The position numbers and the translations under genes were made by a program. A DNA stretch of 64,000 nucleotides from Sedimentisphaerales bacterium (GTDB lineage Bacteria; Planctomycetota; Phycisphaerae; Sedimentisphaerales; Anaerobacaceae), in assembly GCA_016932835.1 (NCBI GenBank), contig JAFGCD010000088.1, positions 1 to 64,000 of the forward strand, given 5' to 3'. Shown here piece after piece: positions 6,592-43,455 of the stretch; position 1 is the first letter of the stretch; every line of letters starts with the position of its first letter. The notes beneath the pieces were generated by a model. That model was not told the DNA's origin. It made no database searches and saw only the letters and a list, made by a program, of their open reading frames with translations.

Positions 6592-7107
6592 ATGGTTATA
6601 TGGTTGATCGGCATTTCGGGTTCGGGCAAAACTACCTTAGGTGTGGAGTTGAAGAAGTGGTTCGACGGATTGAGCAAGGCATCCTGCATAATTGACGGCG
6701 ACCTTGTGAGGGGTTTCTACGACAACGACCTGGGATATTCACGCGAAGAGAGGGTGGCGAATATCAAGAGGATTATGCTGGCGGCATATTTGCTGGACCG
6801 GACCGACGTCGCCGCGATAGTGTGCAATATTTCTCCTTTCGAAGAGTTGAGGAAATTCGCCCGCCAAAAAATCGCCGGCTATAACGAGATATACCTTAAG
6901 AAGAGTCTGGAGAAAAGCAGAGCCGACGACGTCAAGAACATGTACGGCGACAACATCGGCAAGACTGAAATAGTCGGGATAGACCTGGGATTCGACGAGC
7001 CGGCAAAAAGCGACTTGACAATAAATGTGGACGAAGAAACTGTCGAAGAGTCACTCAAGAGGATTACGGCCTTTATCTCGAAGAAGTACGGCCAAGAGCT
7101 TCGATGA
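6592..7107 (+). CDS. cysC: Adenylylsulfate (APS) kinase
   Basis: Cytoplasmic kinase converting adenosine 5'-phosphosulfate plus ATP to PAPS, the donor for sulfotransferases. At 171 residues it is a single-domain CysC. The P-loop GISGSGKTT is near residues 7-15, followed by the APS-kinase motif IDGDLVRG, then NIKRI and ISPFEELRKFA in the positions expected for this family, and IYLKKSLE before the lid region. Its stop overlaps the ATP sulfurylase start by ATGA. Placement right after the exporter, rather than with sulfite reductase genes, suggests sulfation of the exported glycan instead of cysteine synthesis. No sulfotransferase was found in the window, so the acceptor is unknown. A related kinase acting on another nucleotide substrate cannot be excluded. 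Confidence 0.85.
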   Translation: MVIWLIGISGSGKTTLGVELKKWFDGLSKASCIIDGDLVRGFYDNDLGYSREERVANIKRIMLAAYLLDRTDVAAIVCNISPFEELRKFARQKIAGYNEIYLKKSLEKSRADDVKNMYGDNIGKTEIVGIDLGFDEPAKSDLTINVDEETVEESLKRITAFISKKYGQELR

Positions 7108-8180
7108 AACTAACGCACGAGATAAACGACGAGATATTGCAGGACATGATAAACCTGCACACCGGGATGTATTACCCTCTGGACGGGTTCATGACATCAC
7201 TGGATTATCACAACGTCGTCGATAATATGATGCTGAGCGATAAATCGGTTTGGACCATCCCGATAACTCTCGACGTCACTCACGATGTATTTGTCAAGGC
7301 GATGGATGCCGACAAACTGCACCTGACGCACAAATCAAGGCAAGTCGGATTTGTAGAGATAGCCGACTGCTACAAGATTGATGCAGAAAGTGATGTCGTC
7401 AAGGTGTTCAAAACGTGCGATTCGGCGCATCCGGGGGCCAAAAAAGAACTGGAGAGGTTCGAATACAGAGTCGGAGGCAAGGTAATGGTCTCGGATCAGT
7501 CGCTGCTGAAAGGCTCTTTGAGACCCGAACAGACACGCCAAGCATTCGCCGAGAAAGGCTGGAAAACGATTGTCGGTTTTCAGACTCGCAATCCGATTCA
7601 CCGGGCGCACGAACACCTGCAGAGATCGGGATTGGAACTGTGTGACGGGCTGTTCATAAATCCGTTGATGGGATGGAAGAAGACGGGCGATTTCACCGAG
7701 GCCGCTATCGAGGCTTCGTATGAGTGCATGACCAATCAGTTTTATCCGAAGGAGAGGGTGTATCTGGCGGGGCTGTGGACATTTATGCGGTATGCAGGGC
7801 CCAGAGAGGCCGTCTTTCATGCCGTGATCCGGCGGAATCTGGGCTGTACACATTTCATAATCGGCAGGGACCACGCCGGTGTCGGCGACTATTACGGCAA
7901 GTACGAAGCCCACGAACTCGCGAAGAAACTGGCAGCGAAAGACCATCTGGGCATAGAACTGCTGCTCCTGAAGGAGCCCTATTATTGCAGCAGATGCGGG
8001 CAGATAGTCAGCGAAAAGACGTGTCGGCACTCGGGAGCAGACATCGAGCCGGTAAGCGGGACAAGAATCAGGGCAATGCTCAGCGCCGGCAAGCGGCCCG
8101 ACGAGAGGTTTATGAGATCCGAGATCGCCGATGCGATAATTGCGCTGGGCGATGAGATGTTCATCAAGGAATCGAAATGA
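7104..8180 (+). CDS. sat: Sulfate adenylyltransferase (ATP sulfurylase, Sat type)
   Basis: Makes APS and pyrophosphate from ATP and sulfate. The 358-residue length fits the homo-oligomeric Sat family, not the CysDN type. Diagnostic motifs are QTRNPIHRAHE near residue 155 (nucleotide and sulfate binding) and GRDHAGVGDYYGKY near 253. A C-terminal Cys/His cluster (CSRCG then CRHSG) matches the structural zinc site known in several bacterial Sat enzymes. Overlaps cysC upstream and the pyruvate-kinase-like gene downstream by four bases each, so the APS and PAPS steps are tightly coupled. Pyrophosphate removal would need a pyrophosphatase encoded elsewhere. Confidence 0.93.
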   Translation: MKLTHEINDEILQDMINLHTGMYYPLDGFMTSLDYHNVVDNMMLSDKSVWTIPITLDVTHDVFVKAMDADKLHLTHKSRQVGFVEIADCYKIDAESDVVKVFKTCDSAHPGAKKELERFEYRVGGKVMVSDQSLLKGSLRPEQTRQAFAEKGWKTIVGFQTRNPIHRAHEHLQRSGLELCDGLFINPLMGWKKTGDFTEAAIEASYECMTNQFYPKERVYLAGLWTFMRYAGPREAVFHAVIRRNLGCTHFIIGRDHAGVGDYYGKYEAHELAKKLAAKDHLGIELLLLKEPYYCSRCGQIVSEKTCRHSGADIEPVSGTRIRAMLSAGKRPDERFMRSEIADAIIALGDEMFIKESK

Positions 8181-9902: not shown

Positions 9903-11411
9903 ATGGCAAAGAAGTTTTTCGATTTTGGTGGTGAGTTGGGGCTTCCAAAGGTTGTCGAGATAGAGCCGACGGACGCGTGCAACCTGCAATGCCGGATGTG
10001 TCATGTGAGCTATCGAGCGAAAGGGGCGAGAACTCACATCAATCGCAAGCTGCTCGAGCAACTTCGGCCTCTCGAAGGCACGCTCATATCCTTAGGTTCC
10101 AGTTTCGAGCCGATGATGCATCCGGAGTTCTCTGAAATACTCTCGATGCTCAGGGATTTCGGCTTCAGGCTCGACATGGTGACCAACGGCACTCTGCTCA
10201 ACGACAAAATCGTCGGCCAAATGAGAGAATGCGATTTTGGCAGGCTCAGCTTCTCCTTCGACGGAATCAAGAAAGAGACTTATGAATATATCAGGCGCAA
10301 TTCAGACTATGATCGCACCATCGCGAATATCACGAATGCGCGCAAGGCTTTCACAAACAAAGACACGTTTTTCATGATCAACAACGTCATAATGCGATGT
10401 AATATCGACGAATTGATCGAAGGCATCGATTTCTGGGATGCCGAAAGTTTCGACAGAATGAACTGCATGTTCATGGTTCTTCGCGAGAAGAACGACTGGC
10501 TGTGGAATCAAAGCTTATATTCTATCCGTCCTTACGCTTACCGCAGGCTCGACGAAGCCGCCAGGCACGTAATAGAAAAAAAGAAAAGACTTATGATCGG
10601 CTGTGCTTACTATTCAAAGTCCGCGTTGAAGACGACATGCCCGGATAACCTGGCGGACGGCCTTGTATTCAGCGACAAAAAACTTTACGAGAGATTTCCG
10701 AGCATAGAGAAGGTCGCCCTGCAACAGGGTGCGTTTCCCGGCATGAAGTTCAAGGGATGCCGGACGGCGTTTGTGTTCGCGAAGATTTTTCCGAACGGTG
10801 ATGTCCAACTGTGTCACAAGGAAATCGTCGGAAACATCAATAAGCAGAACTTCGTGGAGATATGGTTTGGAGAAGCTGCATACAATTTTCGGCGGCGACT
10901 GATGGCGACGACGGACGCCTGCAGAAAGTGCACGTGCTGGCTGTTCTGCATAAACCAGCACAATATGGATACCGATGACATTCACAGCCATCTTGGGGGG
11001 ACATTCAGGTATCCATGCTTGGTAGAAGAAGGATACAGGGGGTTTAATATAGTATCGCTCAAAGGCAGATTCTATGGTCTGGCCCAGGGTGAAGGTAAAC
11101 TCGACCTCAATAAAGTCAACACGAATGACTATCGTTGTGTTGTCGCAGACAGTATCGGCGAAGTCAAGCAGCTTATAGACGAGTCTCTGGCGTCACCTGA
11201 GCGAGAAGATCGCAGGCTCATCGAGGAGGGATATGGGGATTTCAACATAATCCACCACAAAGACAGATTTTACGGTCTCGCTCAGGCCGAGGGGAGACTG
11301 GAGCTCAGCAAGGTCGGCACGGGGGGCTATCGCTGCGTTGTCGGCGAAACGCCTGAAGAGGTCAAGCGACTCATAGACAAACTGGGCATCCCGGCAGAAA
11401 CAAGACAATGA
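9903..11411 (+). CDS. SPASM radical SAM protein with two C-terminal YGLAQ modules
   Basis: 502 residues in three parts. Residues about 10-230 are a radical SAM barrel, with the [4Fe-4S]-SAM motif CNLQCRMC in VEIEPTDACNLQC and the helper SLGSSFEPMMHP. Residues about 280-365 look like a SPASM/twitch region, with Cys residues in KGCRTAF, VQLCHKE, ACRKCTCWLFC, able to hold auxiliary clusters. Residues 373-427 and 439-493 are two copies of the roughly 55-residue module described separately. The substrate is unknown; related proteins act on peptides, sugars or aminoglycosides. Starts 29 bases after cysQ and overlaps the next gene by ATGA. Surrounded by glycan genes, it is likely a sugar- or glycan-modifying oxidoreductase, by inference only. 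Confidence 0.85.
   Translation: MAKKFFDFGGELGLPKVVEIEPTDACNLQCRMCHVSYRAKGARTHINRKLLEQLRPLEGTLISLGSSFEPMMHPEFSEILSMLRDFGFRLDMVTNGTLLNDKIVGQMRECDFGRLSFSFDGIKKETYEYIRRNSDYDRTIANITNARKAFTNKDTFFMINNVIMRCNIDELIEGIDFWDAESFDRMNCMFMVLREKNDWLWNQSLYSIRPYAYRRLDEAARHVIEKKKRLMIGCAYYSKSALKTTCPDNLADGLVFSDKKLYERFPSIEKVALQQGAFPGMKFKGCRTAFVFAKIFPNGDVQLCHKEIVGNINKQNFVEIWFGEAAYNFRRRLMATTDACRKCTCWLFCINQHNMDTDDIHSHLGGTFRYPCLVEEGYRGFNIVSLKGRFYGLAQGEGKLDLNKVNTNDYRCVVADSIGEVKQLIDESLASPEREDRRLIEEGYGDFNIIHHKDRFYGLAQAEGRLELSKVGTGGYRCVVGETPEEVKRLIDKLGIPAETRQ
11019..11381 (+). repeat. Two copies of the YGLAQ module in the SPASM radical SAM protein
   Basis: Copy 1 spans 11019-11183 and copy 2 11217-11381, separated by an 11-residue acidic/basic linker. 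Both show LxEEGY, FNI, RFYGLAQ.EG, YRCVV and EVK.LID at matching positions. The first Cys of YRC is residue 40 of the module in both. The copies differ at many silent and surface positions, so this is not a recent DNA duplication. Confidence 0.9.
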
Positions 11412-12279: not shown

Positions 12280-14232
12280 ATGGAAAGCATCTATCCGATT
12301 GAAATACCCGACATTGAGCTCCGTCCGAACCAGGACCTTATACTGCTGGATCTGCCTGCACGGATATCCGCAATGATGCCCAATGGCCTGGGCTATGTGC
12401 ATAATATCCTGAAGAAGACAGGGATTCGCTTTCAAACGGTTGACCTGGATGTAATTTTCTATCATCTCTACCATTCGAGAAGAATCCTCAACAAACCGGA
12501 CAAAGTGCTTACGCCTGACGGATATGTGATGAGAGAAGACCCGTGGGAGGCCATAGGCATAGAGGAGGAATGGCGAAGACCTGAAGTGATGGAGTACTTT
12601 CGCCAAGAGATCGACGCAACCGTTGCCGGCCTGGTTCAAGCCCGACCTAAGATTTTAGGCATCTCACTGCACAGCACGAATCTGCTAATCGCCAAACACA
12701 TCGTCGAAGCCGTCCGTGCCCGTTACCCGGAGGTTATTGTTCTGGTCGGCGGTTATGATTGCGTAGATCACATTCGCGGCCCGCAGCGATTCAGCGGGTA
12801 TGACTATATGGTGATTCGTGAGGCCGAAATCACATTGCCGGGTCTTGTGCGGGCTTTGGCAGCCGGGGAGAAACCAAAGGATCTGCCCGGCGTCATTTCA
12901 CGCTATGATTCACCGGGACGAATCTGGGAGCCCGGGCCGGTGCCGGAGGACCTGGACTCCATCGACTTTCCGCAATATGACTGGGCCGGACTCGACCTTT
13001 ACAGGCGATGGAACGGGCAGCGCCTGACACCTATCCTTGCAAGCCGCGGATGCAGTTGGTCGCGATGCCGCTTCTGCTGTGAATGGTGTATGTACCGCAA
13101 GCGGTCGGCGGAGAAGGTTGTCGATGAATTGCAGTGGCTCGTCGAGCAAGGCAGCGATGTATTCCAATTCAACGACAGCGATGTGAACGGCGATCCGGAT
13201 TATCTCATTGAAATCTGTAAGGACATTATCAGACGCGGGCTGAAAGTCAAACTTACCGGCCAGTTGCGCATCAACAAGCGCGGTACACGGGAATTCTATG
13301 ATTGTCTCAAGAAGGCCGGGTTCAGCAGACTGCGTTTTGGAGTGGACGGATGGACGGACCATACGCTTCGGCTAGAGAGGAAAGGGTACACGACAGACAT
13401 AGTCAATCAGAATCTTCGCAGTTGTCGCGAAGCCGGAATATATATTGCCGTCAATTCAGTTGTCGGTATTCCGGGAGAAACCGATGAAGATATAGAAGAG
13501 ACTATCGCAAATATCCTCAAGAACAAGGACTATATCGGGCTCGTGGAAAGCGTTCGCACCCTAATGCTTGTGGCAGGCAGTGAGTACTACCAGAATCCGG
13601 AAAAATACAACATCCGTTTTCGCGGCGACAAAGAAAACCTCTACGCCGAGAATCCCATCCACATCCCCGATCACCTATGGTACAGCGTTGACCCGTATAT
13701 CGATGAGGAAGTCAAATCACAACGGTGGCAGAGAGTATGTTCGGCGGTGAGCGCCGGCGGTGTGACGGTCGGCCCCTATATCAAGTGGCGGGCTAAGGAT
13801 ACAGGCGGCAACGCCGCTGATCTCATAATCAAGAGAACGGGCAGCCCCTTGCTGGTAGAAGAGGGCTACAGGCAGTTCAATATAATCTCGTGCAACGGCA
13901 AGCTGTATGGGCTGGCGCAGAGCGAGGGGAGATTAAACCTCGATAAAGTCGATACGGACGGATATCGATGCGTTGTGGCCGAATCTGTCGAGGAAGTCAA
14001 GCGGCTTATCGACAGGCAAACTCCTGCAGACGAGAAACGCACGCTCATCGAGGAAGGATACAGGGGACACAATATCATAAGCGTCGGCGCCAAGCTGTAC
14101 GGCCTGGCTCAAAGCGAAGGAAAGCTGGATTTGGGCAGAGTGAACATGGAAGGATACCGCTGTGTAGCGGGAAATTCGGTGAACGAGGTCAAACGCTCCA
14201 TAGACCGCTGTGTCGCCGAGAAAAGTAAATAA
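12280..14232 (+). CDS. B12-binding radical SAM protein with two C-terminal YGLAQ modules
   Basis: 650 residues. An N-terminal cobalamin-binding-type domain (about 20-220: ILGISLHSTN, VLVGGYDC) precedes a radical SAM barrel (about 245-450) whose cluster motif RGCSWSRCRFC has four rather than three residues between the first two Cys. A second Cys pair follows at once (CEWC). GQLRINK and VVGIPGETDED are typical of the family. Residues 525-579 and 589-643 are two YGLAQ modules. Family members methylate or rearrange unactivated carbon; the product here is unknown. A ribosome-binding site AAGGAG lies 10 bases before the ATG. Sits between an SDR and a membrane glycosyltransferase-like gene. Confidence 0.88.
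   Translation: MESIYPIEIPDIELRPNQDLILLDLPARISAMMPNGLGYVHNILKKTGIRFQTVDLDVIFYHLYHSRRILNKPDKVLTPDGYVMREDPWEAIGIEEEWRRPEVMEYFRQEIDATVAGLVQARPKILGISLHSTNLLIAKHIVEAVRARYPEVIVLVGGYDCVDHIRGPQRFSGYDYMVIREAEITLPGLVRALAAGEKPKDLPGVISRYDSPGRIWEPGPVPEDLDSIDFPQYDWAGLDLYRRWNGQRLTPILASRGCSWSRCRFCCEWCMYRKRSAEKVVDELQWLVEQGSDVFQFNDSDVNGDPDYLIEICKDIIRRGLKVKLTGQLRINKRGTREFYDCLKKAGFSRLRFGVDGWTDHTLRLERKGYTTDIVNQNLRSCREAGIYIAVNSVVGIPGETDEDIEETIANILKNKDYIGLVESVRTLMLVAGSEYYQNPEKYNIRFRGDKENLYAENPIHIPDHLWYSVDPYIDEEVKSQRWQRVCSAVSAGGVTVGPYIKWRAKDTGGNAADLIIKRTGSPLLVEEGYRQFNIISCNGKLYGLAQSEGRLNLDKVDTDGYRCVVAESVEEVKRLIDRQTPADEKRTLIEEGYRGHNIISVGAKLYGLAQSEGKLDLGRVNMEGYRCVAGNSVNEVKRSIDRCVAEKSK
13852..14208 (+). repeat. Two copies of the YGLAQ module in the B12 radical SAM protein
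   Basis: Copy 1 is 13852-14016 and copy 2 14044-14208, with a 9-residue linker. Both have LxEEGYR, NIIS, KLYGLAQSEG, GYRCV and EVKR.IDR. These two resemble the copies in the SPASM protein more than those in the transferase and in the stand-alone array, which carry one extra residue before the Cys. Confidence 0.9.
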
Positions 14233-27348: not shown

Positions 27349-27396
27349 CCTGAATTGTTAGGGCGGACAAAACGCGCCGCCGGAGATACTGACATC

Positions 27397-29244
27397 ATGA
27401 AAAGCTTCATCAACCTACCGCTTTGTGCCGCACTTCTTATCATCGGTTGCGGGTGCACCACCGACGATTCACCTGAACGCACCGCTAAAAGCAATGCGGA
27501 CCAGCCATCGAAAGAACCTGTTCTCGTAGAAACGTACAAGGCCTTCGAAATTGTGCGATCTCAAGACAAGTTCTACGGCCTGGACCAGGCAGCCGGGGAG
27601 CTGGATATAGAGAAAATCGGCACGAAGGGTTATCGCTGCGTAATCGGCGATTCGCCTGAAGAGGTCAAGCGGCTTATAGACAAGCTGCTCATTGCAGAAC
27701 TTATCGAGCAGTTGGATCAAACAGAACCGAACAAGGCATCTGATCGAGCGGCTCGTGAATCGGTTTTGGGTGATGCCGGGCCCGCCGAGGCGAGCAGCCA
27801 AGGAACTGCAGATAGCAACGCCGTTAAGATTACAGGGGAATCTACGACAAGAGCACCCGTTCTCTATACTGCGGACTCCGTGAGCACCGGCCGTTTTGCC
27901 GTAACATATCTCTTTGACAATAATCGTGACACCTTCTGGGAGACTACCAGTCCATTTCCGCACTGGGTAGAGACAGACTTTGGCCCCACCCGAAAGCTTG
28001 TCAGGTCATACGCTCTGCAGACCGGCAGCCATGGCAAGAACGGAACTGATTCGACCGACAGAATGCCTAAAGACTGGCAATTCCAGGGATCGAACGACCG
28101 AGAGAGCTGGACGACACTCGACACGCAGACCAACCAGGAAAACTGGCGGATAAACGAGCGAAGGACTTACAACTGCGCCGATCCCAATACATACAGGTAC
28201 TATCGTTTACATATTGCCGCCGGTGTGAATCCCGGCGTATTGAGACTCTCGGAGTTGACCCTGCGGACGCAGGCCGACCCTAATTCAGTCGCAGCGGATA
28301 CGGCGTCACAAAACCGAGACACAGCCGATGTAACCGGATCCGAATCATTTTCTCTGATCGTACTTCCCGACACTCAATCTTACACGATGCACTATCCCGA
28401 GATATTCACATCTCAGACACAGTGGATAAAGGATAACAAAGCGGCTATGAATATAGTCTTTGTGCTGCACGAAGGTGATTTCACAGAGAATGATTCCGAC
28501 CTTGAATGGCAGCGGGCCAATACAAGCATGACCATTCTCGACGGTGTCGTGCCTTATACTTTCTGCGGGGGCAACCACGATGTGCCGAATCACGGCAGGC
28601 TCTCCGCCGATGCCAGGGATAATTCCAAACTGAACCACTATTTTCCTGTCAGCAGGTTTGCCAATGAGCCCTGGTGGGGCGGATGCGCCGCAGACAACCC
28701 GGACGGACGTTACGTCTTTTTCGATGCAGGCGGAATGGAGTTTATGATTGTTTCTCTGGAATTCGGCCCCAATGATGAAATGCTCCGGTGGGCCAACCAG
28801 GTTGTTGCCGAATTCCCCGAAAAGCGGACCATCTTCCTGACGCATTGCTATATGCATGAAGACGATACGCGGTCTGGTCCCGGGGACCAGTGGAACTGCA
28901 GGGGATGGGCCGGCGACGGCAATGACGGCGAACAGATGTGGGATGAATTCGTCAAGCTCCATAAAAACATCTTCCTTGTGCTTTCGGGCCATATTCTCGG
29001 AGACGGGCTGGGCCGATTGACGAGCATAGGAGTAAACGGTAATCCTGTTCATCAGATTCTGGCCAACTACCAGGACCCGCCTATTCCCGTAGGCAACGGC
29101 GGTAACGGATGGCTCAGAATCATGACCTTTCTGCCGCAGAAAGACAGAATCGAAGTTCGGACTTATTCGCCTTGGCTGGATCAGTATGCTACCGATGGGC
29201 AGAACAGATTTAATTTGCCGTATTTGATGAGCGGTACTGGGTAA
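27397..29244 (+). CDS. Lipoprotein: YGLAQ module + F5/8-type domain + metallophosphoesterase
   Basis: About 615 residues. The start at 27397 gives a lipoprotein signal peptide (LCAALLIIGCGC; lipobox Cys 18). One YGLAQ module follows at about 43-96. Residues about 155-295 form a discoidin/F5-8C-like domain (FWETTSPFPHWVE, YALQTG, RMPKDW, NERRTY, NPGVLRL). The C-terminal half is a calcineurin-like phosphoesterase with metal motifs LPDTQSY, HEGDFTEN, GGNHDVPN, LTHCYMH and LSGHILGD. It should sit at a membrane outside the cytoplasm. The combination suggests a surface enzyme that binds a glycan and cleaves phosphoester bonds, perhaps in the same polymer. An in-frame earlier start at 27355 would hide the signal peptide. 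Confidence 0.87.
   Translation: MKSFINLPLCAALLIIGCGCTTDDSPERTAKSNADQPSKEPVLVETYKAFEIVRSQDKFYGLDQAAGELDIEKIGTKGYRCVIGDSPEEVKRLIDKLLIAELIEQLDQTEPNKASDRAARESVLGDAGPAEASSQGTADSNAVKITGESTTRAPVLYTADSVSTGRFAVTYLFDNNRDTFWETTSPFPHWVETDFGPTRKLVRSYALQTGSHGKNGTDSTDRMPKDWQFQGSNDRESWTTLDTQTNQENWRINERRTYNCADPNTYRYYRLHIAAGVNPGVLRLSELTLRTQADPNSVAADTASQNRDTADVTGSESFSLIVLPDTQSYTMHYPEIFTSQTQWIKDNKAAMNIVFVLHEGDFTENDSDLEWQRANTSMTILDGVVPYTFCGGNHDVPNHGRLSADARDNSKLNHYFPVSRFANEPWWGGCAADNPDGRYVFFDAGGMEFMIVSLEFGPNDEMLRWANQVVAEFPEKRTIFLTHCYMHEDDTRSGPGDQWNCRGWAGDGNDGEQMWDEFVKLHKNIFLVLSGHILGDGLGRLTSIGVNGNPVHQILANYQDPPIPVGNGGNGWLRIMTFLPQKDRIEVRTYSPWLDQYATDGQNRFNLPYLMSGTG
27523..27684 (+). repeat. YGLAQ module in the lipoprotein phosphoesterase
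   Basis: 54-residue copy with LVETY, FEIV, KFYGLDQ, GYRCVIG and EVKRLIDK. It is one residue shorter at the start than the others (no second Glu-Gly pair) and is the only copy placed at an N-terminus and predicted to be outside the cytoplasm. Confidence 0.85.
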
Positions 29245-29314: not shown

Positions 29315-31207
29315 GTGAAACAAGGACAGATAATCATCATAGGCAACGGCTGTGAAGCCGTCAGGTGCTACGAGGTCTTGAAAAAGTACGGTTTCGATAT
29401 AGCCGGTTTCCTCGGGCCGAACACGGCAGAGATACCTGTGGATGAAAGTCTAACCCTGTTTACCGAGAATAATATTGAGGATATTGCCTCTATGCACTGT
29501 CCTGTCGTCTTTGCAGCAGAAGACGCTGTCTGGGGCCGCCAAATCAAGCAAAAGTTGACTCAGGCTGGAGTACGTCAGAACCTCCTTGTCGATGACTCGA
29601 TACTCTTTTCACAAGATACCGAGAAACTGATCGACGCTCTGTCGTTCAACAGCCAGACAGAGCCGAACGAGTATGTGAGATGCCTGCTCGAACGCTATCC
29701 CAATAGCGCGAAGGATGTGATCGGAACACTGGCGGATTATCAAGTCGAAAAGATAAAAAGCCAGATAGACCCTGACCAAAAAACGCTCGCCATATACTAC
29801 CCAAGCAAGGCCTACAGAGCCAATCTCGGTAGTGAAGGAATGAGGAAAAAAGTCCGCGAGAAGGGTTACAATGTCATTTCTCTCTTTGGCGTCATCCGGG
29901 CAGACGAGTATGAAAAACGCCCCTTCTCGTATTACGCCGGGCACGATTTGATTGAGAGATTCGACTTCGTCGATGTCTTCGTATATCCATGTCTTACCGC
30001 CGGACTCCCGAAAAGGTCTAAGAAGGTTCTCTTTGCCCACGACATATATGACTCGCCGAGCGGCAAGGATGAAGCGCCGCTTGAATCAGGACCGGATTCC
30101 GACGGCCCTCAGCACATCTCGCCCCTGCTGGACGAACTGGATTATACGTTCATACCATGCAGATCGCTCTACGGCAAGACACAGATATCCGTGACAAAAT
30201 ATATCAGGTCGAGGCCGCTGTGGCGAATTCCTGGAGGATACATTAAGCTCGATCGCAATATTCAGTTTTTTGAATCGCACAAATCCGACATACCTGTTGA
30301 CAGCATTATCTACGCCCCGACAGTATGCGGTGACATATTTGAGAATTACGTCTCACTGCCCAGACATGGAAAAGAGATCGTAGGAGCCCTGCTGGCGAAT
30401 TTTCCGGATTACAGGATAATCTTCAGACCGCACCCGCATACACTCGATACGGAATATGTGGCGAGTATTGAAAAGCAATTCCGCGATAATGAACGCTTTC
30501 ATTTGGATTCCAATGCAAGCTTCTACATGAAAAATTACAGCAGATCGACCGTCATGATCACGGACATGTCCGGAACGGCCTTTACATATGCTTTCACTAC
30601 CCTGAGACCTGTAGTCTTCTTTTCGCACAACGAGGATACGGTAGAAGAGGCGTTCAACAAGGTCAAGTATTTTGAAGACCGCCGAAAAATCGGTTATGTC
30701 GTTACAGATATAGAACAGCTTGTGAAGAAAACGACGCTACTTATAGATGAGCGAGAGAACTTTTCAGAGATGATTCGAGAGTTCAGAGACGCTGAAATCT
30801 ACAATGTTGGAAAGGCGGAAGCCTATTTTGCAGCAACGTGCAACCATATTTTTGAAGGCACCGTCCAGAAGGACTGGGGCATCGTCCTGTCAGTGGACTA
30901 CCAAACGCGAGGCAGGCTGGATGCGCCATTGGCAGCCGGCCTCCGACAAGAAACACCCGCTTGCGACGTCAGAAACGACCAGCCCCATCTGATCGAAGAA
31001 GGGCACAGAGGATACAACATAGTACGATTCGGGGATAAGTACTACGGAATTGCCCAGGAGGAGGGGGCGTTTGAGATAGAGAAAGCCCGCGAAAACGAAT
31101 ACAAAAGGTGCTTTGCAGGCAATTCCGTGAACGAAGTCAGGACATATATTGACCGGCAAGCCGTCCATAGCACACACCGCGGCCAGAACCAGCCGGCACA
31201 CATCTGA
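29315..31207 (+). CDS. CDP-glycerol-transferase-like GT-B protein with C-terminal YGLAQ module
   Basis: 630 residues starting at GTG. Residues 1-100 are a small Rossmann-like module (IIIIGNGCEAVR) similar to the PglD/NeuD N-terminal sugar-nucleotide fold. Residues about 150-535 resemble the CDP-glycerol:polyprenyl glycerophosphotransferase (TagF/TagB) and related GT-B group: IYYPSKAYRANLGSEG, KVLFAHDIYDSP, IFRPHPHT and VMITDMSGTAFTYAF, the last like the ISDYSS motif of that family. Residues 559-614 are one YGLAQ module. It may transfer a glycerol- or ribitol-phosphate-like or sugar unit to the glycan. Tandem paralogue of the next gene, which has a coiled coil instead of the module. Confidence 0.78.
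   Translation: MKQGQIIIIGNGCEAVRCYEVLKKYGFDIAGFLGPNTAEIPVDESLTLFTENNIEDIASMHCPVVFAAEDAVWGRQIKQKLTQAGVRQNLLVDDSILFSQDTEKLIDALSFNSQTEPNEYVRCLLERYPNSAKDVIGTLADYQVEKIKSQIDPDQKTLAIYYPSKAYRANLGSEGMRKKVREKGYNVISLFGVIRADEYEKRPFSYYAGHDLIERFDFVDVFVYPCLTAGLPKRSKKVLFAHDIYDSPSGKDEAPLESGPDSDGPQHISPLLDELDYTFIPCRSLYGKTQISVTKYIRSRPLWRIPGGYIKLDRNIQFFESHKSDIPVDSIIYAPTVCGDIFENYVSLPRHGKEIVGALLANFPDYRIIFRPHPHTLDTEYVASIEKQFRDNERFHLDSNASFYMKNYSRSTVMITDMSGTAFTYAFTTLRPVVFFSHNEDTVEEAFNKVKYFEDRRKIGYVVTDIEQLVKKTTLLIDERENFSEMIREFRDAEIYNVGKAEAYFAATCNHIFEGTVQKDWGIVLSVDYQTRGRLDAPLAAGLRQETPACDVRNDQPHLIEEGHRGYNIVRFGDKYYGIAQEEGAFEIEKARENEYKRCFAGNSVNEVRTYIDRQAVHSTHRGQNQPAHI
30989..31156 (+). repeat. YGLAQ module in the CDP-glycerol-transferase-like protein
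   Basis: 56-residue copy with LIEEGHRGYNIV, KYYGIAQEEG, EYKRCFAG and NEV...IDR. Compared with the radical SAM copies it has one extra residue before the conserved Cys and Phe after it. The same form is found in the stand-alone array at 42829-43455. Confidence 0.9.
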
Positions 31208-40439: not shown

Positions 40440-42836
40440 ATGAAAAACCTATCCCTGATACTACCCACCAGAGAGCACCCTATACTGGTCAAAAGGCTGT
40501 TTGACAGCCTGGTGCAAACCGTCAGTGACCCTGAGCAGATGGAGATCGTGCTGTATGTAGATGACGACGACGTTGAGAATCATCACATCTCTCATCCCTC
40601 ACTAAACATCATCACGAAAATCGGGCCGAGTCCAAGAAAGACTATGGGCAACATAATCAAAGATTGTTATAACGCCAGCAGCGGCCGTTATGTGATGTTG
40701 ATAAATGACGACGTCGTCTTTCGTACAAAGAAATGGGATGCCAAGCTATTGGAAGCCTTCTCTCGCTTCGACGATGAGGTCGCTCTTGTTTACGGCAGGG
40801 ATTGCTACTACGATAAGGAAATGTGCACATTCCCGGCTTTGTCCCGCACCACCTGCGACCTGATGGACGGGATATGCCCGGGCGACTACGACAGTCATTG
40901 TATAGACTCGCACATATTTGATACCTTTAAGCAGTTGGCTGAGATCGGACATGACAGAGCGGTATATCTTCCAGATGTAGTCTTCGAACACATGCACTAT
41001 GAGTCAGGCGCCTCGGCATACGAAAATAAATTCGAGCGCACCAATGACCAGAATGATCAATCCGTATATCTTGCTCTTGCCGCCAAACGACAGAATACGG
41101 CAAAAAAGATGGCTCAGTATATAGCATCCTGTAAGAACCCCGCGGCAAATACGAATACCGGAAAGATCGAGAAAGACAAACCAGCAGTCAATCCTGTTGC
41201 CGGCAATATGACGAAGCCCTCATCACCACCGGTTGTCTCGCTGATAATGCCGGTGAACCAAGACTCTTTGGAATATGCCGTCGCGTGCCTCAAGGCCGCG
41301 CTCGACGATAACAGCGATAATGCTTTGTCACTCGAATTTGTTATCGTCCTCAGTGATGCAGATGAAGACAATCTCCGATTCCCCAAGCGAATAAAGAAGA
41401 AGACGACAGTCGTCTTAAATGAATACACCAGCACCGCCGGTGCGTTGAATTCCGGAGCCTCGGCTGCCAAAGGCGACTATCTCGTTTTTCTCAGCAGTAA
41501 ATCGGTTCCCAAGAAAGGCTGGATTGGCGCTCTCTGGCAGACGGCACAAGATGAAAAAGCAGGTATCGTCGGCTCTAAGTGGCTCAACTCACGCACTGGC
41601 AGAATCGAACACTTCGGTATCGGCTTTCATAAAGACAATGGCGTGCTCAGAAAAAGTTATTTATATCGAGGACTCGCCGCGAATCACCCTGCAGTTAACA
41701 GTATCAAAGAAATCCAGGCTGTAAGAAGTGTCGGGATGTTTGTGAAAAAGGATGTTTTTCTCAATGTCGGTTGTTTTGACGAGACCTATCCGGGAGTGGA
41801 AGACATAGATCTGTGTTTGAAGGTGCGTCAATCGGGCCGCAAGGTCTTGTGCGCACCGAATGCTAATCTCTACTGCGAAGGCCAGAACACAGGGGAAGAC
41901 CACTCCACAATGGATGCTGGTTTAGAGGCCCTCAATTCCAAATGGAACGGACAGATAAAATGCGACTTGGAGGACTTACTCGAAAAAGACGGGTTCATAC
42001 TTCGCTCGCATGTTGAGAAAAGCTATGTTTGCCCAAGCCGGAACCTGATTGATGGGCTGGCTGATACAGGCAACAACTGCACAAAATCCAGAGAATTTCT
42101 CGAAGAGACCCTCGAACTTGTCAAAAACGCCGGAGGCGACAATGAGGACATGTCCGCGATCTGCCGGAAACTTGTCGACGTCTATATCTCATTAGGTCGA
42201 GATGATGATCTTCATAAAATCTATCGGCTGATGCAGGATTACGGATTGTCCGCCCCGGTTACACTGGGAAAATATGAGAATCTAACCAGGGCCGACAAGC
42301 GGAATCTGGGCACGGTTACTTCTGTCGATATGTATGCAGGCACTAGATTCGTGATACCTGTACCGGCTTCTGTCTCAAAAATACAGATGAAGATGTACAA
42401 GCAGGGTTCGCCGGATGATGACATAGCAGCTTTTCTTTACCGTGACCACGAGGGTCCGAGTGACCCGGTAGGCAAAGGAGGTTCCAAAACAGTCCGCGGA
42501 AAGGATATAGCCTCAGACCCGACTGGCCAATGGGTCGATTTCACCTTCTCGAAACCGGTGCCGCTTCGCGCCAACACCTATTATTGGGTCGTCCTGCACC
42601 GAACCGGCCGGGCGGATAATGCAAACTACTATAGAATACTCCTCGATTCCAGTCCTGAGTGCAAATATCCATACGCCTCCGATTATTACGGGGCAATGGC
42701 AATCAACGGCAATATCAGTGCTCGTATCAGCCAGTTGTTCAGGGTCACAGGCAGTGTAGCTCCGCATGCACCCAAGAGCAAAAAACAACGAAACAATAAA
42801 CCACCAACAAAGAAAAGGGCGAGACGGCATGAATAA
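40440..42836 (+). CDS. Fused double family-2 glycosyltransferase with C-terminal beta domain
   Basis: 798 residues. GT2 domain 1 (about 1-225) has LSLILPTREHP and an intact acidic motif LINDDVVF. GT2 domain 2 (about 265-520) has VSLIMPVNQ, GALNSGASAAKGDYLV and GVEDIDLCLKVRQ, but the metal motif reads LSSKS: Lys 354 (codon 41499-41501) stands where Asp is expected, so domain 2 may be inactive or metal-independent. Residues about 530-620 are helical. Residues about 623-778 look like a jelly-roll, choice-of-anchor-R-like domain (KMYKQGSP, FTFSKPVPLRANTYYWVV). The end is very basic (KKQRNNKPPTKKRARR). Overlaps the module-array gene by eight bases. Confidence 0.8.
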   Translation: MKNLSLILPTREHPILVKRLFDSLVQTVSDPEQMEIVLYVDDDDVENHHISHPSLNIITKIGPSPRKTMGNIIKDCYNASSGRYVMLINDDVVFRTKKWDAKLLEAFSRFDDEVALVYGRDCYYDKEMCTFPALSRTTCDLMDGICPGDYDSHCIDSHIFDTFKQLAEIGHDRAVYLPDVVFEHMHYESGASAYENKFERTNDQNDQSVYLALAAKRQNTAKKMAQYIASCKNPAANTNTGKIEKDKPAVNPVAGNMTKPSSPPVVSLIMPVNQDSLEYAVACLKAALDDNSDNALSLEFVIVLSDADEDNLRFPKRIKKKTTVVLNEYTSTAGALNSGASAAKGDYLVFLSSKSVPKKGWIGALWQTAQDEKAGIVGSKWLNSRTGRIEHFGIGFHKDNGVLRKSYLYRGLAANHPAVNSIKEIQAVRSVGMFVKKDVFLNVGCFDETYPGVEDIDLCLKVRQSGRKVLCAPNANLYCEGQNTGEDHSTMDAGLEALNSKWNGQIKCDLEDLLEKDGFILRSHVEKSYVCPSRNLIDGLADTGNNCTKSREFLEETLELVKNAGGDNEDMSAICRKLVDVYISLGRDDDLHKIYRLMQDYGLSAPVTLGKYENLTRADKRNLGTVTSVDMYAGTRFVIPVPASVSKIQMKMYKQGSPDDDIAAFLYRDHEGPSDPVGKGGSKTVRGKDIASDPTGQWVDFTFSKPVPLRANTYYWVVLHRTGRADNANYYRILLDSSPECKYPYASDYYGAMAINGNISARISQLFRVTGSVAPHAPKSKKQRNNKPPTKKRARRHE

Positions 42837-43455
42837 ACACAACAACTATTTGGCAGGCAACACGTTGCTGGAGGTCAAGGACGCGATAAGCTCGGTTATT
42901 GCTGAATCACAACCAACCGACGAACCCGTACTAATCGAAGAAGGGTACGAACGCTTTAATATAATGCAGTATGGTAAGACTTATTATGGTTTATCGCAGA
43001 ATGAAGGTGCGTTCGAGCCGCGAAAGGCGAAAAATCGCGAGTATAAGAAATGCTTTTCCGGCAACTCCATTGCAGTAGTTAAAAACGCAATAAGCGCAGC
43101 TATGCGAACGCAGGCCAACAGCATCGATGCCGCGAGATGGGAACCGCGTCTCGTCCATGACAATTACTATGGGTTCAACATTATTCATTTTGGGGATAAG
43201 TACTTCGGAATTTCTCAAAGCCAGGGAGAGTTTGATATAAACAGGTTCCATAGAAACGAATATGACCACTGCTATCAAACCGCGACCGCAGACGAGATCA
43301 GAAATATCATCGACAAGGTCATTGCACGCTCGAACACGTCACGCGAACCGATTCTGGTAGAGGAAGACTATCGTGGATACAACATTGTGCTCTTTGGCGA
43401 TAAGTACTACGGAGTTTTTCGGAATGGAGAGGCCTTCGACGTATCCAGAATATAG
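42829..43455 (+). CDS. Stand-alone circularly permuted array of YGLAQ modules
   Basis: 208 residues made almost wholly of the module found on other proteins of this locus. Residues 5-24 match the second half of a module (LAGNTLLEVKDAI). Full copies lie at 35-90 (42931-43098) and 108-163 (43150-43317). Residues 176-208 (43354-43452) are the first half of another (DYRGYNIVLFGDKYYG), after which the frame stops at TAG. First and last halves would make one whole unit, as in proteins closed by N- and C-terminal strands. Reading the next 60 bases in other frames gives no continuation, so the end is not a simple frameshift. No signal peptide, membrane helix or catalytic motif is seen. Start ATG 42829 overlaps the upstream gene. 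Function unknown; a hub or adaptor is inferred. Confidence 0.85.
   Translation: MNKHNNYLAGNTLLEVKDAISSVIAESQPTDEPVLIEEGYERFNIMQYGKTYYGLSQNEGAFEPRKAKNREYKKCFSGNSIAVVKNAISAAMRTQANSIDAARWEPRLVHDNYYGFNIIHFGDKYFGISQSQGEFDINRFHRNEYDHCYQTATADEIRNIIDKVIARSNTSREPILVEEDYRGYNIVLFGDKYYGVFRNGEAFDVSRI

Follow-up and report, generated by a model that had tools for sequence, protein, structure and literature searches.

The window analyzed here, that is, the whole 64,000-nucleotide stretch from a Sedimentisphaerales bacterium, contains a surface-polysaccharide cluster in which a 208-aa ORF is located. The cluster encodes an ABC-2 permease and ATPase, radical SAM enzymes, glycosyltransferases, GHMP kinases, a SIS-domain protein, a HAD phosphatase, and a nucleotidyltransferase, a gene set that suggests a heptose pathway. 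The ATG of the 208-aa ORF at 42829 overlaps the 3' end of an upstream glycosyltransferase ORF (40440-42836), and its stop is separated from the next start by 56 nt. The upstream glycosyltransferase has a C-terminal domain with a weak match to DUF4082, under the curated cut-off. The layout of the 208-aa protein, as obtained from the ORF call, profile search, and structure prediction, is as follows (residue numbers refer to the protein).

42829..43455, + strand: stand-alone permuted module array (P0001, 208 aa; ORF call, profile search)
42829..42906, + strand: N-terminal half module; strand 7-10 followed by helix 13-26 in the prediction, equivalent to the second half of a canonical module (profile, prediction)
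42922..43116, + strand: complete module 1; strands 34-40, 43-48, and 51-56, short helix 64-68, strand 75-78, helix 81-96
43141..43332, + strand: complete module 2; strands 107-113, 116-121, and 124-129, short helix 137-141, strand 148-151, helix 154-168
43345..43452, + strand: C-terminal half module, equivalent to the first half of a canonical module; strands 175-181, 184-189, and 192-197 (profile, prediction)

The core of the module comprises approximately 53 residues, and the profile used to delineate it was built from 187 modules, with the 208-aa protein left out. Modules 1 (residues 36-88) and 2 (residues 110-161) match this profile at 61.6 and 52.8 bits, respectively, and thus belong to the module family; the linkers between modules, as measured from the profile match coordinates, are 15 to 20 residues long. 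The C-terminal half scores 34.3 bits alone, and its match breaks off at model position 31-32 of 53. The N-terminal half alone yields a weak match of 4.4 bits to model positions 37-53; none of 5000 random 30-mers scored as high as this half in local alignment to the second half of module 1, and by this comparison the N-terminal half module can be taken as real despite its weak stand-alone score. The layout agrees with the preliminary description, according to which the protein begins with the second half of a module, contains two full copies, and ends after the first half of another. The same description stated that no lost second half is found in other frames, and our search of the flanking DNA, upstream and downstream and in any frame, likewise revealed no half modules.

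The module recurs in four other proteins of the window, in each case as complete canonical copies:

11010..11384, + strand: C-terminal pair of canonical modules in a radical SAM/SPASM protein (ORF 9903-11411)
13843..14214, + strand: C-terminal pair of canonical modules in a B12-binding radical SAM protein (ORF 12280-14232)
27514..27687, + strand: single canonical module close to the N-terminus of a protein with metallophosphoesterase and F5/8-type domains (ORF 27355-29244)
30980..31159, + strand: single C-terminal canonical module in a Glyphos_transf-family protein (ORF 29315-31207)

The beta halves of the stand-alone protein have their closest relative in the last of these modules. Outside the window, the module was found in Omnitrophota, Deltaproteobacteria, Nitrospirae, and Spirulina, as well as in a few members of the phylum to which the window belongs. 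It is rare in five phylum samples, being present in 3 of 392, 7 of 285, 19 of 346, 4 of 345, and 1 of 234 genomes, where the last four samples were picked because one member carries the module. One module profile was too diverse and was dropped for the contig scans. The module-carrying proteins include Wzt-type ATPases, radical SAM enzymes, GT2 and GT4 glycosyltransferases, methyltransferases, and a sulfotransferase, and in several loci the module is placed between the ATPase domain and Wzt_C. Carrier loci outside the window include L037, L038, L040, L041, L042, and L070. The highest copy number observed is 12, in a protein of 1195 aa whose N-terminal part is GT2-like (L118:4989-8573); NCBIfam model NF047701, which gives a weak match on this 12-module protein, was rejected as a descriptor of the module, since it failed to match the genome of the window. 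No significant match to the module was detected in Pfam, NCBIfam, PADLOC, PHROGs, or the PDB sequences. The novel elements of the present analysis are the module itself, which lacks a sequence match in Pfam, NCBIfam, or the PDB, and its permuted stand-alone form.

Whether an array is permuted depends on the phase in which its repeat is read, and the phase was determined from a survey of 93 distinct ORFs containing 181 modules from several phyla; contig ends truncate some of these ORFs and others stem from related genomes, so that the number of independent events is below 93. The canonical phase of the family is the beta half followed by the helix half. The first modules of all other arrays begin at model position 1-10, in the beta half, and the 208-aa protein is the only one among the 93 ORFs in which the chain ends with a stop in the middle of a module. 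In the other 92 ORFs the last module is either complete or followed by further sequence, the latter including three ORFs with a short last match, in which the chain runs on beyond the match. An arbitrary choice of phase was therefore rejected, and the permuted phase claimed previously proved to be a deviation from the family's own. Within proteins, similarity between beta halves tracks that between the helix halves of the same modules (rho 0.54, reached in 0 of 500 permutations) as compared with the preceding helix halves (rho 0.12); this signal comes mainly from the 12-copy protein, and leaving it out gives rho 0.28 for the own helix versus 0.26 for the preceding one. The structural alignments to the predicted model cover residues 32-103 and 102-169, in each case a sheet and then the next helix, and therefore each helix is packed against the sheet that precedes it.

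No orthologue of the 208-aa protein was found in two congeneric genomes, in 161 genomes from the order, in viral contigs, plasmids, and phages, in the five phylum samples (392, 285, 346, 345, and 234 genomes), or among the genome contigs scanned with degenerate patterns. The lack of orthologues in these sets is consistent with a degenerate remnant, that is, an array cut from a longer one at both ends, in which the half modules are unpaired leftovers and only the two complete modules work. The relationships between copies fit this scenario as well: beta halves 2 and 3 form the closest pair and helices 1 and 2 are unlike each other, as would be expected if a helix had been lost after beta half 3.

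The properties of the two end halves, however, argue against decay. Rejoined in silico, the C- and N-terminal halves produce a sequence that scores 42.5 bits over the whole profile (positions 1-53) with one deletion, a score attained by the C-terminal half joined to a random 30-mer in only 8 of 20000 cases. All hydrophobic core columns of the rejoined module are filled (14/14), and its junction loop of 9 residues falls in the range of the family (8-19 residues, mode 10); the chain break itself sits in a loop, within the least conserved stretch of the module. The earlier proposal that the two halves would complete a third unit is thus borne out to the extent that the rejoined sequence is a full-length member of the family. 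The two halves complement each other to within one residue. Among random double cuts, about 7 to 18% would by chance give halves that match to within two residues, a range that leaves room for the remnant scenario, and for this reason we regard complementarity by itself as moderate evidence, which becomes stronger together with the conservation of the core. Between beta halves 1 and 3, identity is 43% at the protein level and 23% at third codon positions, which suggests that the C-terminal half has been under long purifying selection, at least before any truncation. Third codon positions are near saturation between most copies, and yet every core residue is kept in both halves. Given these data, together with the prediction that both halves are folded and that the N-terminal strand is paired in the model (see below), we consider a remnant to be unlikely. 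The assignment of the 208-aa protein as a circular permutation of the module array is well supported by sequence comparison.

The structure of the 208-aa chain was predicted by AlphaFold2 with a 17-row alignment (pLDDT 86.0, pTM 0.52); because the pTM is only 0.52, the arrangement of modules relative to each other is uncertain. A full module is predicted to have the order beta-beta-beta-(short helix)-beta-alpha, and both end halves are predicted to be folded: the N-terminal half forms the same strand and helix as the internal modules, and the C-terminal half forms three strands. Strand 7-10 is as long as its counterparts in the complete modules, 75-78 and 148-151. The assignment of strand 7-10 implies a partner strand in the model. 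Modules 1 and 2 already have their fourth strands in 75-78 and 148-151; the natural partner is therefore the sheet of the C-terminal half, and strand 7-10 would accordingly pair in the model with this sheet, which is without its own fourth strand. One structural row, 1k0e_A (39 residues, rmsd 2.0, Z 2.4), spans model residues 6 to 198; as a fold match it is at chance level, and it was used for geometry only. It provides indirect evidence that the N-terminal half may be placed beside the C-terminal half in one compact piece. Foldseek searches against the PDB and BFVD gave no match at E 0.001 or better, and the best VIA structural rows, with Z of 4.6 and below, do not suffice to name a fold. The comparison with propeller-like folds made in the preliminary description is not supported, given the predicted order of secondary structure elements in the module and the lack of significant matches in the structural searches.

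Together, these observations lead us to a reading that we consider somewhat probable: the protein would be a permuted array of an undescribed module that forms a closed bracelet of three modules, the split third module being assembled from the ends. In this arrangement, (i) two modules would fold from contiguous sequence, (ii) the third module would be composed of the C-terminal half, which supplies three strands, and the N-terminal half, which supplies the last strand and the helix, and (iii) the termini would clasp each other, thereby closing the bracelet. The end halves, then, probably pair with each other, and the pairing would take place within one chain rather than between chains. The alternative offered alongside a closed ring in the preliminary description was a head-to-tail oligomer or polymer, in which the N-terminal half completes the C-terminal half of the next chain, so that the chains either stay open-ended or close into a dimer or trimer. 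Since this interface does not differ from that of the closed monomer, complementarity, core conservation, and the predicted structure fit equally well, and a scaffold would be well served by pairing between chains. With 15 to 20 residues, on the other hand, the linkers look long enough for closure within a chain, which is favoured at low concentration, and the weak 1k0e_A row brings residues 6 and 198 together in a single predicted chain; we therefore assign the polymer a rather low probability, slightly above that of the remnant. Of the earlier proposal of a ring or a polymer, the permutation stands, and contact between the end halves is indicated indirectly, by strand 7-10 and this one row.

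Another way to satisfy the end halves is complementation in trans, by pairing with orphan halves on other proteins of the cluster. Unpaired halves would expose hydrophobic core residues, and the module is present on many cluster proteins; but the other modules found in the genome are all complete, with no orphan beta half among them (orphan helix halves are too short to detect), and this explanation appears very improbable.

Comparison with known systems revealed that the closure of an array by split ends is already documented in plant inhibitors and in propellers, and the closest known principle, by analogy, appears to be the bracelet of the Pot II inhibitors together with the Velcro closure of propellers. 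In the Pot II (Pin-II) inhibitor precursors, segments from the two termini combine into one non-contiguous domain, which closes the bracelet (PMC2259423). Both there and in the arrangement proposed here, tandem repeats of about 50 residues are closed by terminal segments, and the terminal segments of the 208-aa protein sum to one repeat, as judged by the complete profile span and the filled core of the rejoined module. The 208-aa protein is not a member of the Pot II family, which consists of cysteine-rich plant proteinase inhibitors with eight conserved cysteines per repeat (PMC2259423), whereas the 208-aa protein has two cysteines in all. The bracelet also occurs in most multi-repeat Pot II members, whereas a single member of the module family is permuted. 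In propellers such as tachylectin-2, the blade at one end of the chain is completed by a strand from the opposite end, and such closure can arise from duplication combined with new start and stop codons (PMC4735018). Propellers are rings of four-stranded blades, in contrast to the predicted beta-beta-beta-beta-alpha units of the 208-aa protein, which are connected by linkers and end in a helix; propeller chains gave weak partial matches to the model, with Z below 3. If the proposed closure is true, the protein would be a natural bacterial case of a permuted array whose module is otherwise seen in open arrays only, so that the effect of permutation could be measured directly.

Accessory regions in ABC-dependent glycan assembly serve to recognize the glycan or to recruit enzymes (PMC11231755). 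The carbohydrate-binding module of Wzt-type O-antigen ABC transporters and the coiled-coil scaffolds are accessory regions of this kind, through which transporter and enzymes recognize the glycan or one another; the module described here lies between the ATPase domain and Wzt_C in several loci, but it matches no Pfam family and is distinct from the Wzt_C domain of the same chain. The module hints at a shared putative recognition element in pathways of ABC-exported polysaccharides. Because the same module decorates an exporter ATPase, glycosyltransferases, methyltransferases, and radical SAM enzymes, the modules-only protein may act as a trivalent adaptor presenting three sites for one partner, either the growing glycan or a shared protein; this role is less certain than the closure itself. 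The wider proposal, that an undescribed module exists also as a permuted three-module clasp or a split-module polymer scaffolding the parts of the polysaccharide-assembly machinery, is tentative, and we hold it to be possible but doubtful.

Two further observations concern the glycan and the location of the module. APS kinase and ATP sulfurylase genes (6592-8180 in the window) adjoin exporter genes, and a sulfotransferase carrying the module is encoded in locus L037; for these reasons, the glycan may be sulfated. The protein encoded by 27355-29244 starts with a lipoprotein-like signal sequence, which is followed by one module, the F5/8-type domain, and the metallophosphoesterase domain; given this signal on a module carrier, the module may have a role on both sides of the membrane.
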